A stretch of 64,000 nt of DNA from Streptomyces umbrinus. Its GTDB lineage: Bacteria > Actinomycetota > Actinomycetes > Streptomycetales > Streptomycetaceae. Each line of letters starts with the position of its first letter. Position 1 is the stretch's first letter. Shown here in pieces: positions 41,696 through 50,174 of this stretch. The notes beneath the pieces were generated by a model that was not told the DNA's origin, did no database searches, and worked only from the letters and a program-made list of their open reading frames with translations. A program made the translations under genes and the position numbers. The DNA lies in assembly GCF_030817415.1 (NCBI RefSeq), contig NZ_JAUSZI010000002.1:3224001-3288000 (forward strand), written 5' to 3'.

Positions 41696-42928
41696 TCAGG
41701 ACACAGGCCGCGAATCGGCCCAAGCCACCTCGAACTCCTCGCGATACGTCCCGAAAAGCCCTTCTTCGCCGACCTCGTCCGGCTTCAACACCCGCCCCCC
41801 GCCGCGCAGCACGAGCACCGGTGCCTCCATCCCGCGCGTCCGCCGCAGATACGACTGCACGACCGCTATGCCGTCCGAGCCGTCCCCGTCGACGAGGTAC
41901 GCCGTGAAACGGGGCGTCTCGTCGTAGACCTGGATCTCGAAAGCGCCGGGATCGCGCAGCCGGGCCCTGACCCGGCGCATGTGCAGGATGTTCATCTCGA
42001 CGGAGCGGCTCAACTCGCCCCGCTTGATGCCGAGTTCACGCTCGCGGCGCTTGACCGCGCTTGAGGCCGGGTTCAGGAACAGCAGCCGCACCCGGCAGCC
42101 GGACTCGGCCAGCCTGACGAGCCGCCGTCCGGAGAAGTTCTGCACGAGGAGGTTGAGGCCGATGCCGATGGCGTCGAGGCGGCGCGCTCCGCCGAAGATG
42201 TCCTCGGCGGGGAACTGCCGCATCAGCCGCACCCGGTCCGAGTGCACGCCCACCACGTCCGCATACCGGTCGCCGACCAGGTTCTCGACCGCGTCGACCG
42301 GAAGCCGCCGCGCGGACGGTACGTCGCTGCCCGCGCCGAGTATCTCCAGGAGCTTCGCGGAGGCGCGCTCGGCCTGGGCGAGGACGGCCTCGGACAGCGC
42401 CCTGTTGCGCGAGACGACGTTGCGGGTGACTTCCAGTTCGTCCAGGGCGAGTTCGACGTCCCGGCGCTCGTCGAAGTACGGCTCGAAGCACGGCCAGTGC
42501 TGCACCATCAGCTCGCGCAGCTGGGGCAACGTGAGGAAGCTCAGGACGTTGTCGTCGGCGGGGTCGAGCAAGTAGCCCTTGCGGCGGCTGACTTCGCGTA
42601 CGGCGACGGCCCGCTGCACCCACTCCTGCCCCGCGGGTCCGGCGGCGGCGACCACCCAGTCGTCCTCGCCGTGGACGGGTTCGTAGATCGGGCGCAGAAC
42701 AGCGGCCACGACCGCGCGCAGCCGCTGTTCGACGAGGTTCAGCCAGATGTAGGCCCGGCCGGCCCGCTGGGCGCGCGTACGCACCTCGCGCCAGGCGTCG
42801 GCGCCCCAGTCCAGCTCCGCTCCGATTTCCATCGGTCGTGCCAGGGACACCGCGCCCGGTGGGGCATCCGTGGAGCTCCCCTCGTGACCGCCGTCACCAG
42901 GGGGCAACTCCAGCCCTCCGGACCCCAC
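41696..42928 (-). CDS. SAV2148 family HEPN-domain protein
   Basis: The 410-residue protein is strongly reminiscent of the SAV2148 family conserved across Streptomyces. The middle GADAWREVRTRAQRAGRAYIWLN leads into a helical region that the family description assigns to HEPN. A C-terminal half with LLFLNPASSAVKRRERELG and LRDPGAFEIQVYDETPRFTAYLVDG looks like a phospholipase D-like or nucleotide-binding fold. GTG 42928 is chosen from the conserved start GSGGLELPPGDGGHEG. HEPN domains are often RNases; no R-x4-6-H motif is certain here. Confidence 0.78.
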   Translation of the reverse strand: MGSGGLELPPGDGGHEGSSTDAPPGAVSLARPMEIGAELDWGADAWREVRTRAQRAGRAYIWLNLVEQRLRAVVAAVLRPIYEPVHGEDDWVVAAAGPAGQEWVQRAVAVREVSRRKGYLLDPADDNVLSFLTLPQLRELMVQHWPCFEPYFDERRDVELALDELEVTRNVVSRNRALSEAVLAQAERASAKLLEILGAGSDVPSARRLPVDAVENLVGDRYADVVGVHSDRVRLMRQFPAEDIFGGARRLDAIGIGLNLLVQNFSGRRLVRLAESGCRVRLLFLNPASSAVKRRERELGIKRGELSRSVEMNILHMRRVRARLRDPGAFEIQVYDETPRFTAYLVDGDGSDGIAVVQSYLRRTRGMEAPVLVLRGGGRVLKPDEVGEEGLFGTYREEFEVAWADSRPVS

Positions 42929-43031
42929 CCGCGCACCGCCTTCCGCTCCCCCGAGCACTCCCCCAGCCAACGATCAAGGAAGGGTACTCCCGGGAGCAGC
43001 CGGCGGTGCAGCCGGATGGACAGGTCGTTTC

Positions 43032-44378
43032 TCAACTACCGTTGTCCGGCCTGCCGTTCTGATCGGCCAGCTCCGGCGGAGTGAGCGGATTCATAGCGGT
43101 GACATCGCGCGGGGCGATGGAGAAGCCCTGCCAGTGGACCGGCATGGGCTGCTGGTCCTCGTCCCGGGCGACGTGGTGGAAGCCGATGTTCACCCAGGCC
43201 ACGGGGTGCGTGAGGTTCTGTCCGTTGACCCACTTGTCGACGGACTTACCGGCTCCGGTACCGCAGTTGCGCAGGTTGTTGCTGGCGAACTGCTCGCACT
43301 TCTTGTACTGGGTGAAATAGACGTCGCGCTTGGTGTAGCTGCGGCCCGGGTACTTGGAGGTGGCGCCCGGGACGAGTTCGTACGAGCGGGCGTGGTCGTC
43401 CTTGTTCTTGCCGGTCGTGCTGACCACGCGCCACCAGCGCATGTTCTTGGCGTCGCCCGCGAGTTCCTTGGTGATCGGCGTGCGGGTGGTCTTGTTGCGC
43501 GGCGCCTCGCCGTTGGCGGCGGGCGGGCTGACCACGGAGTCGTACTGCTCGACCTTGTTCTTGGAGTTGCCGTCGAGGCCGAAGTTGAGCCGCCAGAAGA
43601 CGTTGTGGCTGTGGCTGGTGGCGTACGCCCTGGCGCCCTTGCCGATCGGCCAGCCGCGGCCGTCACCGGCGTCGTAGTCACCGGGCGAGAGGCTGCCGGT
43701 GGCGCCGACGTTCATGTTGATCGCGCCGTCGTCCGAGAAGCGCCACTCGGTGATGTACTCGTACCAGCCGACCTGGTTGACGGTGTAGACGAGCAGGTCC
43801 TTGCCCTGCTGCTGGAAGACCTTGCTCGCCGAGTCGCCCTGCATGCGGTAGGCGTGGCCGCGCGAACGGGTCGTGGTGCACAGGCCCTTGACGTCCGGGT
43901 GCTCCGGGTCCCAGGAGTCCGGGACCTTGACCGTCTTGATGGTGCCGCCGGGACACTCCCCGGGGGCCATGTTCATCAGGCCCTGGCCGAATCCGGCGCC
44001 GGTGAGGTCGTCGTACTCGACCGAGCCGTCGTCGTAGGGCACGTGGATCTGGGCGAGCTTCGCACTCGTCAGGACACGTATGGGGGCCGCTTCGCCCTTG
44101 GGCTGGTACGAGATGTTCTCCAGGACGAGCCCGGCCTCGCTCTCGTAGTGCCAGCACATCGACCACTTGGTGCCGGTGGTGAGTGTCTGCTCGATCTTGT
44201 ACGCCGCGCTGCAGTCGGCGGCCGCCGCGGGGGCGGCCTTGGGCTGGGCGACGGCCGGCCCCGCGGCCGTGGTGGCGCCGACGGTCAGGGCGGCCACCGA
44301 GAGGCCCACCGCCGTCCGCCTGCGGGCGCGGTTGACTCCCCGCGGCCGGAGGCCGCTGAGCAGATGCTGTACGCGCAT
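43032..44378 (-). CDS. Secreted copper amine oxidase catalytic domain (split form)
   Basis: The 448-residue protein has a signal peptide and only the beta-sandwich catalytic domain of copper amine oxidases. Visible are the copper ligands HxH (ATSHSHNVFWRLNF), the distal segment WVNIGFHHVARDEDQQPMPV then HWQGFSIAPRDV, and a likely catalytic Asp in VEYDDLTG. The quinone cofactor site aligns as VGWYEYITEW, where the usual Asn before the Tyr is Trp. Such enzymes are normally about 640 residues with N2 and N3 domains. These are absent here, and a secreted protein with N2/N3-like sequence is encoded immediately upstream. ATG 44378 follows GGGAG. Confidence 0.82.
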   Translation of the reverse strand: MRVQHLLSGLRPRGVNRARRRTAVGLSVAALTVGATTAAGPAVAQPKAAPAAAADCSAAYKIEQTLTTGTKWSMCWHYESEAGLVLENISYQPKGEAAPIRVLTSAKLAQIHVPYDDGSVEYDDLTGAGFGQGLMNMAPGECPGGTIKTVKVPDSWDPEHPDVKGLCTTTRSRGHAYRMQGDSASKVFQQQGKDLLVYTVNQVGWYEYITEWRFSDDGAINMNVGATGSLSPGDYDAGDGRGWPIGKGARAYATSHSHNVFWRLNFGLDGNSKNKVEQYDSVVSPPAANGEAPRNKTTRTPITKELAGDAKNMRWWRVVSTTGKNKDDHARSYELVPGATSKYPGRSYTKRDVYFTQYKKCEQFASNNLRNCGTGAGKSVDKWVNGQNLTHPVAWVNIGFHHVARDEDQQPMPVHWQGFSIAPRDVTAMNPLTPPELADQNGRPDNGS

Positions 44379-44478
44379 GAAGAAATGACTCCCTTGCACA
44401 AGCAGGAAAGTTGGAAAGGTGAACCGGCCCCTGGTGCTCCGAGGCCGGCGAACGCAGGAGGCTGAACGGAACGGAAGG

Positions 44479-45294
44479 TCAGCCGACCTTGGCGATCTTC
44501 CGGGCGCTCAGATCGACCACCAGGTCACGGCTGTCGATCCAGGGACCGTCCTTGGCCTTCACGAAGAGCCGCAGGCAGCGGTGCTTGCCGCAGTCGGCGA
44601 GGGCCGCGGGCGTACCGGCGTTCGCCCGGTAGACCATGCTGTTGAGCAGCAGTTGGTCGGGAGTGGTCAGCTCCTTGCCGGTGGCGTCCTTGAAGTCGGC
44701 CTTCAGACCGGCGCCGAGCCGGTCCGCGATCAGGAGCTGCGCGGCCTCGACGGTCTCGGCACGGCTGAGCGGCGGCTGGACGCCGTGCTGGGTGTCGGTC
44801 CCCTCGACCTTGCCGGTGTCGAGGTTCACGGTCTTGGTGACGAGCGAGTCGTCCTTGTAGTCGTAGAACGACACCTCGGCGCGGCGCGGCGCGTTCGGGT
44901 CGTCCAGTTCGCTCTCGTCGGGCTCGGCGAGGTCGACGGTGATCCGCTGGGGACCCTTGTCGCCCTCGACGTTCTCGCTGGAGCGGAAGAGCTGCCGGTC
45001 GAGGGCGAGCTTCTCGACACGCTCGGTCTCGTCGTCGGTGAGCGGGTCGCGCCCCTTGCCCTTGTCGCCCTCGGCCGGAGCGTCTTCGACGACGCCGGGC
45101 TGCACGGCACCCTGAGCCTGGTCCTGGCTCTGCCCTGCCTGCTGTGAGGTCTGGCCCGCCCCGTTGCCGCCACCGGAGTCGTCGGCACCCGCCGAGCCCG
45201 GCAGGGTGATCCCGACCATGACGGCGGTCCCGGCGACCGCGATGGCCGCACCCGCCACCACCTTGCCCAGATGGCGGTGCACTATCGTGCGCAC
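44479..45294 (-). CDS. Secreted protein resembling the N2/N3 domains of copper amine oxidase
   Basis: The 271-residue protein has one membrane or signal segment (VVAGAAIAVAGTAVMVGITL), a low-complexity Gly/Gln/Ser linker and then an alpha/beta region. The stretch AEVSFYDYKDD...TKTVNLDTGKVEG and GVQPPLSRAETVEAAQLLIAD looks like the amine oxidase N-domain pattern (AEV-x-x-Y-D...V-D-L..G-V...PPL...E..A). Two Cys (DCGKHRC) may pair. It lies 100 bases upstream of the catalytic-domain gene on the same strand, so the two could assemble outside the cell. GTG 45294 follows GGGGGAA. Confidence 0.6.
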   Translation of the reverse strand: MRTIVHRHLGKVVAGAAIAVAGTAVMVGITLPGSAGADDSGGGNGAGQTSQQAGQSQDQAQGAVQPGVVEDAPAEGDKGKGRDPLTDDETERVEKLALDRQLFRSSENVEGDKGPQRITVDLAEPDESELDDPNAPRRAEVSFYDYKDDSLVTKTVNLDTGKVEGTDTQHGVQPPLSRAETVEAAQLLIADRLGAGLKADFKDATGKELTTPDQLLLNSMVYRANAGTPAALADCGKHRCLRLFVKAKDGPWIDSRDLVVDLSARKIAKVG

Positions 45295-45473: not shown

Positions 45474-47603
<2,130 letters not shown>

Positions 47604-47768: not shown

Positions 47769-50174
47769 ATGACACCTGAGCGTCCCGACCCGGTCGCCCC
47801 CGTCGCGCCGACCGCCACCTACCGGCTCCAGCTGCAACCGGAGTTCCCCTTCGGGGCGGCCGAGGCGGCCGTCCCGTATCTGGCCTCGCTCGGCGTCTCG
47901 CATCTGCATCTGTCGCCGGTCCTGGAGTCGGTTCCGGGTTCGGGGCACGGCTACGACGTCGTGGACCACGCGCGCGTGCGGGACGAACTGGGCGGCGAGG
48001 CGGGGCTGCGGTCCCTGTCGCGCACCGCGCGGGAGCACGGTCTGGGGCTCGTGGTGGACATCGTGCCGAACCACATGGCGATGGCCCCGCGCCACAACCA
48101 CGCCCTGTGGGAGGTGCTGCGCGAGGGCCCCGACTCGCCGTACGCGCGCTGGTTCGACATCGACTGGCGGGCCCACGAGGGGCGGATGCTGCTGCCGGTC
48201 CTGGGGCAGCCGCTCAGCGCGGAGACCGGGGCCCTGGAGGTCGACGGGGACGTCCTGCGCTACTACGACCACGTGTTCCCGCTGCGGGCCGGCACGGAGA
48301 AGCTGCCGCTGCCCCGGCTGCTGGACGCGCAGTGGTACCGGCTGGGGTGGTGGCGGCTGGCCCGCACCGAGCTCAACTACCGGCGGTTCTTCAGCATCTC
48401 GGAGCTCATCGGGGTGCGTGTCGAGGACCCGGAGGTGTTCGCGGCCACGCACGGGAAGATCCTTCAGCTGCTGGACGAGGGCGTGGTCGACGGTCTGCGG
48501 ATCGACCACCCGGACGGCCTCGCCGACCCCGACGCCTACCTCCGCCGTCTGAACGAGGCGACGGGCGGGCGCTGGACGGTCGTCGAGAAGATCCTCGCGG
48601 ACGGCGAGCCGCTGCCCGCCGCCTGGCCGGTCGCGGGCACCACCGGGTACGACGCGCTGCGGCACGTGGACGGCCTTCTCACGGACCCGGCGGGCGCGGG
48701 GGAACTCCTCGGCCAGTACCGGCGTTTCGCGGCTCCCCAGGCCGACCGTGGAGGCGTCTGGGAGGCGACCGTGCGGCGTGCCGCGTACAAGGTGGTCCAT
48801 CACGAGCTGGCCGCCGAGGTCGACCGGCTGACGCGCGAGGCGGACCGCCTGTGCCGCACCTCGCCCGACCCCGCGCTGCGCGACCGCGCCCCCTGGGCCC
48901 TGCGCACGGCGCTGCGGGAGCTCCTGGTCCGCATGGAGGTCTACCGGCCGTACACCTCCGGGGACGCCGCGTCGGTCGTCACCGAGGAGGCCGCGGACGA
49001 GGCCCGCCTGGCCTTCAAGGTGCCCGAGGAGGCCCAGGCGGTCGATCTCGTACGGGATCTGGTGCTCGGCCGGGCCGGTGAAGGGCCCGAGTACGAGGCG
49101 TTCCGGGCGCGGTTCGCGCAGACCGCGTCGGCGCTGCGGGCCAAGTCCGTGGAGGACACCGCGTTCTACCGGTACGTTCCGCTGCTGTCGGCGACCGAGG
49201 TGGGCGGCGAACCGGGGTCCCCGGCCGTGTCCCCGGAGGTCTTCCACGCGTACTGCGCGCGCGTGCAGCGCGACTGGCCCGCCACCGGCACCGTCCTGTC
49301 CACGCATGACACCAAGCGCAGCGCCGACGTACGGGCGGCGATCTCGGTCCTCACGCAGGTGCCGGAGCGCTGGGCCGACCTGCTGGCCGAGGTGACCGGG
49401 TGGACGGCGGCCGAAGGGGTCGGCGCGCCGGATCCGCAGGTGGCCTGGGCCGCGTGGCAGACCGCGGTCGGGCTCGGCCCTGCGGCCGGGGAGCGGCTCC
49501 AGGGCGCGCTGCTGAAGCACGTCCGCGAGGCGGGCCTCGGCACCTCGTGGACCGAGCAGGATCCCGCGTACGAGGCCGCCGTGGCGGAGTTCCTCAAGGC
49601 GGGGCCGTGCGGGACGCCCGGGCAGCTGGTGGCCGGGTTCAGGAGCTCCGTCGAGCCGCATGTGCGCGCGAACGTCCTGGGGGCCGCGCTGGTCCATCTG
49701 ACGATGCCGGGGGTGCCGGACCTCTACCAGGGCACGGAGGTCGAGTACCGGGCCTTGGTGGACCCGGACAACCGGCGGCCCGCGGACTTCCCGCCGGCCG
49801 ACCCGGACGGCCTGTCCGCCGAGAAGGCGGCGCTCACCGTGGGCGCGCTGCGGCTGCGCGGGCGGCGGCCCACCGTCTTCGGCGAGTCGGCGACCTACGC
49901 TCCGCTTCCCGCGGAGGGGCCGGGCGCCGCGCACTGTGTGGCGTTCGTGCGCTCCGGGGAGGTGGTCACGGCCGTGACCCGGTTGTCGCTGCGTCTGGAG
50001 GAGGCGGGCGGCTGGCGCGACACGGTGCTGGCGCTGCCCGCGGGGCGGTGGGCGGACCTGCTCGCTCCGGGGCGGGAGTTCACGGGGCACGCGCGCGTGG
50101 AGGAGCTTTTCGGACCGTTGCCCGTGGTGCTGCTGGAGCGGGTCGGCGACGACTCGGGCGCCGGCTCCGGGTGA
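47769..50174 (+). CDS. treY: Maltooligosyl trehalose synthase TreY
   Basis: The 801-residue GH13_26 enzyme turns the reducing end of maltodextrin into an alpha,alpha-1,1 linkage. The start TATYRLQLQPEFPFG, the VDIVPNHMA box, the catalytic Asp in VDGLRIDHPDGLADP, the Glu in WTVVEKIL and ST-HDTKRS near 440-450 are typical. It acts between GlgX and TreZ. Translation starts at ATG 47769. The gene is free of frameshifts and ends 182 bases before the M14 gene. Confidence 0.95.
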   Translation: MTPERPDPVAPVAPTATYRLQLQPEFPFGAAEAAVPYLASLGVSHLHLSPVLESVPGSGHGYDVVDHARVRDELGGEAGLRSLSRTAREHGLGLVVDIVPNHMAMAPRHNHALWEVLREGPDSPYARWFDIDWRAHEGRMLLPVLGQPLSAETGALEVDGDVLRYYDHVFPLRAGTEKLPLPRLLDAQWYRLGWWRLARTELNYRRFFSISELIGVRVEDPEVFAATHGKILQLLDEGVVDGLRIDHPDGLADPDAYLRRLNEATGGRWTVVEKILADGEPLPAAWPVAGTTGYDALRHVDGLLTDPAGAGELLGQYRRFAAPQADRGGVWEATVRRAAYKVVHHELAAEVDRLTREADRLCRTSPDPALRDRAPWALRTALRELLVRMEVYRPYTSGDAASVVTEEAADEARLAFKVPEEAQAVDLVRDLVLGRAGEGPEYEAFRARFAQTASALRAKSVEDTAFYRYVPLLSATEVGGEPGSPAVSPEVFHAYCARVQRDWPATGTVLSTHDTKRSADVRAAISVLTQVPERWADLLAEVTGWTAAEGVGAPDPQVAWAAWQTAVGLGPAAGERLQGALLKHVREAGLGTSWTEQDPAYEAAVAEFLKAGPCGTPGQLVAGFRSSVEPHVRANVLGAALVHLTMPGVPDLYQGTEVEYRALVDPDNRRPADFPPADPDGLSAEKAALTVGALRLRGRRPTVFGESATYAPLPAEGPGAAHCVAFVRSGEVVTAVTRLSLRLEEAGGWRDTVLALPAGRWADLLAPGREFTGHARVEELFGPLPVVLLERVGDDSGAGSG

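Follow-up and report, generated by a model that had tools for sequence, protein, structure and literature searches.

A conserved actinobacterial gene pair that probably encodes a two-polypeptide copper amine oxidase with an altered cofactor motif

The copper amine oxidases (CAOs; Pfam PF01179) typified by Arthrobacter globiformis phenylethylamine oxidase (AGAO) and other bacterial topaquinone (TPQ) enzymes carry their N2, N3 and D4 domains in one polypeptide, with the quinone-forming tyrosine set in a T-x-x-N-Y motif. The periplasmic amine oxidase of Escherichia coli (ECAO) is exported; it too is a single chain, has the usual motif and carries an additional N1 domain. GlxA and galactose oxidase, secreted copper oxidases in which a Trp is stacked on a modified Tyr, have a different fold and a Tyr-Cys cofactor, and serve here as an analogy only. 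In the available part of PMC3382800 the Asn that precedes the quinone Tyr is called strictly conserved in CAOs, and the HPAO N404A mutant is said to form 5-10% quinone; in AGAO N381A (7wir, 7wis), according to the accessible portion of PMC9491219, quinone is made 180 times more slowly, kcat falls to 1/160 and the ring is partly flipped. Of the residues around the quinone ring of ordinary CAOs this Asn is the nearest, and it restrains the ring from turning unproductively. Since both mutants still form some quinone, its role is the positioning of the ring and not oxidation itself. A shortened chain and heterodimers are discussed for the human CAO variant VAP-1 delta-3 (PMC3548902, in the part available), but that is a splice variant of a one-chain enzyme and not a two-gene system. 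A literature search (titles and abstract openings, subscription journals lying mostly outside it) turned up no description of a two-chain CAO or of a W-Y motif, and a word search of a CAO tree paper (PMC12058724) found neither Streptomyces nor Actinomyc*. Co-occurrence of a CAO with a graspetide group is mentioned in the accessible text of PMC13097080.

The window, by which we mean the whole 64,000-nt stretch of Streptomyces umbrinus DNA that was analysed (GCF_030817415.1, contig NZ_JAUSZI010000002.1, positions 3,224,001-3,288,000 of the forward strand), contains an adjacent gene pair that departs from this canonical one-chain N2+N3+D4 plan (Table 1). The N gene lies upstream and the catalytic gene downstream on the same strand, 100 nt apart, and no terminator-like site was found between them; we infer from this arrangement that they share one transcript. 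The gap has no unusual RNA fold (z -0.15), and in 15 of 24 divergent loci a 4-nt overlap of the two genes is possible with a candidate start. For the catalytic gene itself, the ATG at 44378 is more likely to be the start than the GTG at 44399, given the AAGGGAG box 10 nt upstream and the lengths of its relatives (426-448 aa among the best 120 of 732 matches). We take the pair to specify an exported two-polypeptide CAO, (N+catalytic)2, probably quinone-dependent and operating on a rewritten cofactor motif, a reading to which we assign a probability of about 0.7.

Table 1. Positions of the gene pair, its diagnostic residues and its neighbours in the window
Feature	Position	Strand	Remarks
Catalytic subunit gene	43032..44378	-	CAO D4 domain only; 448 aa from ATG; signal-peptide-like N-terminus
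N subunit gene	44479..45294	-	CAO N2+N3; 271 aa; GTG start; signal-peptide-like N-terminus
Intergenic gap, 100 nt	44379..44478	-	RBS-like AAGGGAG box at 44389-44395
Tyr115, equivalent of AGAO Tyr284 / HPAO Tyr305	44034..44036	-	Invariant in 203/203 relatives
Asp124, catalytic base equivalent	44007..44009	-	Invariant in 203/203 relatives
Gln202, in place of consensus Thr of T-x-x-N-Y-D/E	43773..43775	-	Thr in 0/47 split-type rows
Trp205, in place of consensus Asn before precursor Tyr	43764..43766	-	Trp in 203/203 relatives; 46/47 in divergent set
Tyr206, quinone-precursor tyrosine	43761..43763	-	Invariant in 203/203 relatives and 47/47 split-type rows
His256-Ser-His258, first two copper ligands	43605..43613	-	Invariant in 203/203 relatives; align with AGAO HxH
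His402, third copper ligand	43173..43175	-	Invariant in 203/203 relatives
Residue 409, seven residues past third copper ligand	43152..43154	-	Trp in 14/14 ordinary CAOs; Gln in 44/47 split-type rows
CGKHRC, Cys pair 235/240 of N subunit	44575..44592	-	Both Cys conserved in all of the 63 N proteins aligned
HEPN_SAV2148 + DUF5919 gene	41696..42970		Downstream of pair in 75/80 Streptomyces loci
treX, divergent neighbour	45477..47603	+	Pfam CBM_48 + alpha-amylase; treX in 79/80 Streptomyces loci
treY	47769..50174		After treX; treY in 78/80 Streptomyces loci

The downstream protein is recognizably the catalytic domain of a CAO. PF01179 matches residues 65-438 of the catalytic reading frame above the curated cut-off (E 2.4e-41), the predicted structure has the D4 fold, and the sequence aligns with AGAO through the Y-D base motif, VPY, W-Y-E-Y, H-S-H and the distal His. 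Its identity to solved CAOs is 18-22% among the structural matches listed. Where its listed database relatives are named, the name is mostly 'copper amine oxidase'. Some divergent catalytic chains (L153-L157, L160, L162 and L165) continue into long C-terminal tails that are Ig-like (Big_3_5) or Pro/Thr-rich, the Big_3_5 match lying above the Pfam cut-off in L160 and below it in L162; the composition of these tails suggests attachment to the cell envelope.

The upstream protein is far less conspicuous. Pfam assigns it to no family at E<=1, with no match to the N2 or N3 models, and the sole family signal is a weak one to positions 40-121 of the CAO profile PRK11504 (E 2.4e-4). Profile-profile comparison is more telling: against ordinary CAOs the N family matches their N-regions over 171 columns (E 3.4e-10), and the N profile also recovers ordinary-CAO N-regions at 4e-5 to 1e-8. 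The AlphaFold2 model, a low-confidence linker to about residue 74 followed by a folded part (residues 80-270), aligns with HPAO 18-208, AGAO 10-190 and ECAO 84-279, so that homology and fold together, over both domains, place the protein with CAO N2 and N3. That N is unrelated to CAOs is ruled out by the predicted fold and the profile-profile homology. The cysteine pair listed in Table 1 probably forms a C235-C240 disulfide. The original prediction, which proposed a catalytic domain and an N2/N3-like domain as two separate secreted proteins, is supported by the PF01179 match, by the fold and homology of N and by the 79 of 80 loci considered below; an unrelated fold for the upstream protein, or a lack of homology to amine oxidase N-domains, is not what the single-chain model and the profile comparison gave.

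Apparent export signals on both chains are a recurrent feature. Judged by eye and by simple patterns, signal-peptide-like N-termini are present on both proteins in the 11 divergent loci inspected, and an AxA falls at residues 26-60 in 119/119 catalytic and 97/103 N relatives (those starting with Met). As both proteins keep these N-termini in the divergent loci, the site of action is probably outside the membrane, also where the genes lie among those for cytoplasmic sugar metabolism. In its probable export, and in the alignment of its N model, the pair resembles ECAO, from which it differs in having two chains and the altered motif and in the extra N1 domain of ECAO.

How general is the split? 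N lies upstream on the same strand in 79 of 80 loci drawn from GTDB, the 80th beginning at a contig edge, and a full-length orthologue (>=68% identity) is present in 81 of 199 Streptomyces genomes, its own included. Across 296 genomes of the Actinomycetes, PF01179 scores fall into two separated groups: ordinary CAOs at E 5.9e-141 or better (a group that also takes in one contig-end fragment) and the split catalytic type at 1.3e-43 to 4.2e-29. The latter occurs in 30 genomes belonging to six families (f1, f17, f19, f26, f28 and f36). N was found at E <1e-50 in 29 of the 30 (G183 is the one without it), adjoining the catalytic gene on the same strand in 29/29, and at that threshold in none of the 266 other Actinomycetes genomes. 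A phylum-wide draw of 296 genomes gave no strong N match outside Actinomycetes; two genomes there had weak ones (4e-6 and 5e-4), in open frames of ~660 aa. Ordinary CAOs of the Actinomycetes sample are one chain, as had been stated, with open frames of at least 630 aa in all but two rows (G049 and G195). Over all loci compared, 18 of 48 ordinary frames contain a same-frame N match at E<=1e-3. Among 163 split-type frames (loci of a genome fetched twice counting twice) there was no fused N-catalytic form: none has an N match in its own frame, and 158 have a strong one in another. The five without are L080 (contig edge), L180 (a fragment), L145, L149 and L166; G393, the source of L145, also carries the main Streptomyces-type copy. 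Named sources among the listed relatives include Streptomyces, Wenjunlia, Actinacidiphila, Motilibacter, Jiangella, Microbacterium and Mumia.

Could the pair nevertheless be a single-chain CAO broken by gene decay or by an assembly error? There is a precedent in G049, where a stop splits an ordinary N-Y-E-Y CAO (L170) at the same domain boundary and leaves a 4-nt overlap. Against this stand the conservation of the pair in 79/80 loci and 29/30 genomes, signal-peptide-like N-termini belonging to each protein separately, and dN/dS values below 1 (five pairs: 0.26-0.46 for the catalytic gene, 0.18-0.68 for N), and we give the broken-gene reading next to no credence. Strict conservation together with these ratios argues against decay, and the same data rule out a pseudogene or frameshift at the window locus. 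L170 was also considered as a second, independent split and rejected: the stop is isolated, and relatives of the same genus (82-87% identity) are open over 643-775 aa. Separately, L180 (G391) and L181 (G455) have only fragments of the catalytic gene where the pair is expected between treX and HEPN, an indication that some Streptomyces are losing it.

The cofactor motif is where the split type parts company with its relatives. In the 203 database relatives (the best 120 of 732 matches and 83 new ones from the best 120 of 502; those named are mostly Streptomyces) the precursor Tyr, the Trp before it, the second Tyr of the motif, HxH, the distal His, the Asp base and the Tyr284 equivalent are each present in 203/203; the +1 residue after the precursor Tyr is Glu in 201, and the gate residue is Y in 187, W in 10 and F in 6. 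The Trp is therefore no peculiarity of a single strain. (The 80 GTDB loci were found with six peptide patterns, one containing WYEY, so that Trp conservation among them is not independent; the better tests are the class-wide genome sample and the 203 relatives.) More divergent sequences were compared in alignments thinned by identity, with rows of <=300 aa left out of the motif alignment, which covers 20 of the 30 split-type genomes; L150, L180, L181, L112 and L081 were excluded from the thinned alignments. In the motif alignment L150, a frame-broken copy, is misaligned or has gaps at the HxH, at the distal His and at the Asp. Here the residue before the precursor Tyr is Trp in 46 and Tyr in one of 47 split-type rows, against Asn in 13 and Val in one of 14 ordinary CAOs. 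The consensus Thr, present in all 14 ordinary enzymes, occurs in none of the 47, its place being taken by Gln (20), Lys (18) or others (9). Thus two positions of the TPQ consensus, as given in the available part of PMC3382800, are replaced in every split-type row, and the comparison is of T-x-x-N-Y in AGAO and its kind with Q/K-x-x-W-Y here. The +1 Glu or Asp is kept in 42/47 rows. Subclades have their own versions: WYDY in the Streptomyces paralogues L146-L149 and, with the +1 acidic residue changed, WYTY in family f17, WYHY in L145 and YYYY in L142-L144. At residue 409 (Table 1) there is a swap opposite in direction to that of Asn to Trp.

The catalytic proteins of the split type form a single clade: in a tree of 62 rows, a branch supported at 100/100 separates the 47 split rows from the rest. 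Its two, probably exported polypeptides, its low identity and its separate clade set the family apart from AGAO, and the departure, found in many soil actinobacteria, is so strictly conserved as to look like a distinct enzyme type.

A laboratory analogue of the motif change, AGAO N381A, also lacks the Asn, but the mutant has a small Ala and makes quinone slowly (PMC9491219, in the portion available), whereas the natural family, which is maintained by selection, has a bulky, conserved Trp. By analogy with N381A and HPAO N404A, the motif change could abolish the quinone. On that reading the CAO scaffold would hold copper without topaquinone, as a copper-tyrosyl redox enzyme with Trp on Tyr or as a copper-binding pseudoenzyme. 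We regard it as unlikely, though it draws on several observations: the two consensus positions (of four) altered throughout, the crippling effect of Asn-to-Ala in both AGAO and HPAO (accessible parts of PMC9491219 and PMC3382800), the variable +1 residue of some clades, and neighbours of the DUF305 (CopM) type in some. What weighs on the other side is that the Asp base and the Tyr284 equivalent, which quinone chemistry needs and copper binding does not, are kept in 203/203, and that AGAO N381A, in the same portion of PMC9491219, still forms quinone. A family that never has the Asn and retains all of the chemical residues most likely holds its ring in another way, presumably with the bulky Trp on the ring face. 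The original prediction had correctly read Trp for Asn before the quinone-forming Tyr, with the Thr now seen to be gone as well, and had proposed that cofactor formation may differ or be lost. It may differ; loss appears less likely than a cofactor held differently, to judge from the strict conservation of the Tyr, the copper ligands, the base and the Tyr284 equivalent.

On the preferred reading, a two-polypeptide quinone enzyme, the N (N2+N3) and catalytic (D4) subunits would be translated from adjacent genes, exported separately and brought together beyond the membrane in the architecture customary for CAOs, in the simplest case as a dimer of heterodimers. Copper would be bound by the three conserved histidines, the conserved Tyr would most likely be oxidised to a topaquinone-type cofactor, and primary amines would be converted to aldehydes, ammonia and hydrogen peroxide. 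Replacement of Asn by Trp, and of Thr by Gln, Lys or others, would position the ring differently, perhaps by an indole clamp. A more elaborate version is rather doubtful: here the split clade would have a new protein-derived cofactor, a quinone or radical made from the tyrosine and either held in place by the conserved neighbouring Trp (in one subclade Tyr) or cross-linked to it. The two-chain enzyme would mature this cofactor, substrate access would be set by an N subunit able to detach, and the place of use would be the cell envelope.

Must N be part of the finished enzyme at all? The catalytic subunit might be the whole of it and N a dissociable export chaperone or copper-delivery factor made from an old CAO domain, much as MelC1 is a dissociable helper of tyrosinase. 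Separate genes, each with a signal-peptide-like N-terminus (11 loci, by eye), would suit such a helper, as would the three loci (L145, L149 and L166) with enough flank and no detectable N gene, and the N remnant that survives in G509 without a catalytic gene. Against a helper, N keeps the folds of N2 and of N3 alike, with 171-176 residues aligned, and HPAO residues 155 and 156, placed in the amine channel by the available text of PMC3382800, fall inside the stretch (18-208) with which the N model aligns. On that structural correspondence N probably forms part of the amine channel, and we consider the helper role improbable.

The pair keeps different company in different clades. In Streptomyces its divergent neighbour, which we take from its domain make-up to be treX (glycogen-debranching type), is followed by treY, and an RNase_T gene lies downstream of the pair in 74/80 loci. 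In family f17, where 8 of 80 genomes have the complete pair, four pairs (L161 and L167-L169) lie inside a treS-mak-N-cat-glgB row (mak, maltokinase; cat, the catalytic gene), so that genes for an exported amine oxidase are embedded in an alpha-glucan operon; in the short flanks of the other four neither mak nor glgB is seen. Without a catalytic gene, G509 (L191) has an N remnant between mak and glgB, and G504 a partial N. These two alpha-glucan contexts belong to different subclades, and shared ancestral gene order explains the linkage as well as shared function does. Outside Streptomyces and f17, a DUF305 gene directly follows the catalytic gene in 9 of 12 flanked loci (L153, L154, L156-L159 and L162-L164, not L160, L165 or L166); none was found beside Streptomyces or f17 loci. 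DUF305 is a domain of CopM, a copper-binding periplasmic protein of Synechocystis (PMC4335983, in the part available), and its product is a candidate copper-delivery partner. All four of the Streptomyces paralogues L146-L149 (~47% identity) have a beta-lactamase-fold gene alongside; Pfam, applied to L146 and L147, shows NRPS genes on its far side in both, and the split oxidase there possibly tailors a peptide product. L142-L144, in which YYYY replaces WYEY, adjoin a GntR/FCD regulator gene.

Database entries for the N partners bear the label 'Tat pathway signal sequence domain protein' or simply 'hypothetical protein', and under such names this half of the pair goes unnoticed. The natural split lets the N domains be removed or swapped, and so opens their roles in cofactor formation and substrate choice to study. 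Loss of the Asn costs AGAO about two orders of magnitude (PMC9491219, in the portion available). A clade spread over six actinobacterial families that has Trp at that position (Tyr in one subclade) and dispenses with the consensus Thr is a natural test of what the quinone motif requires.
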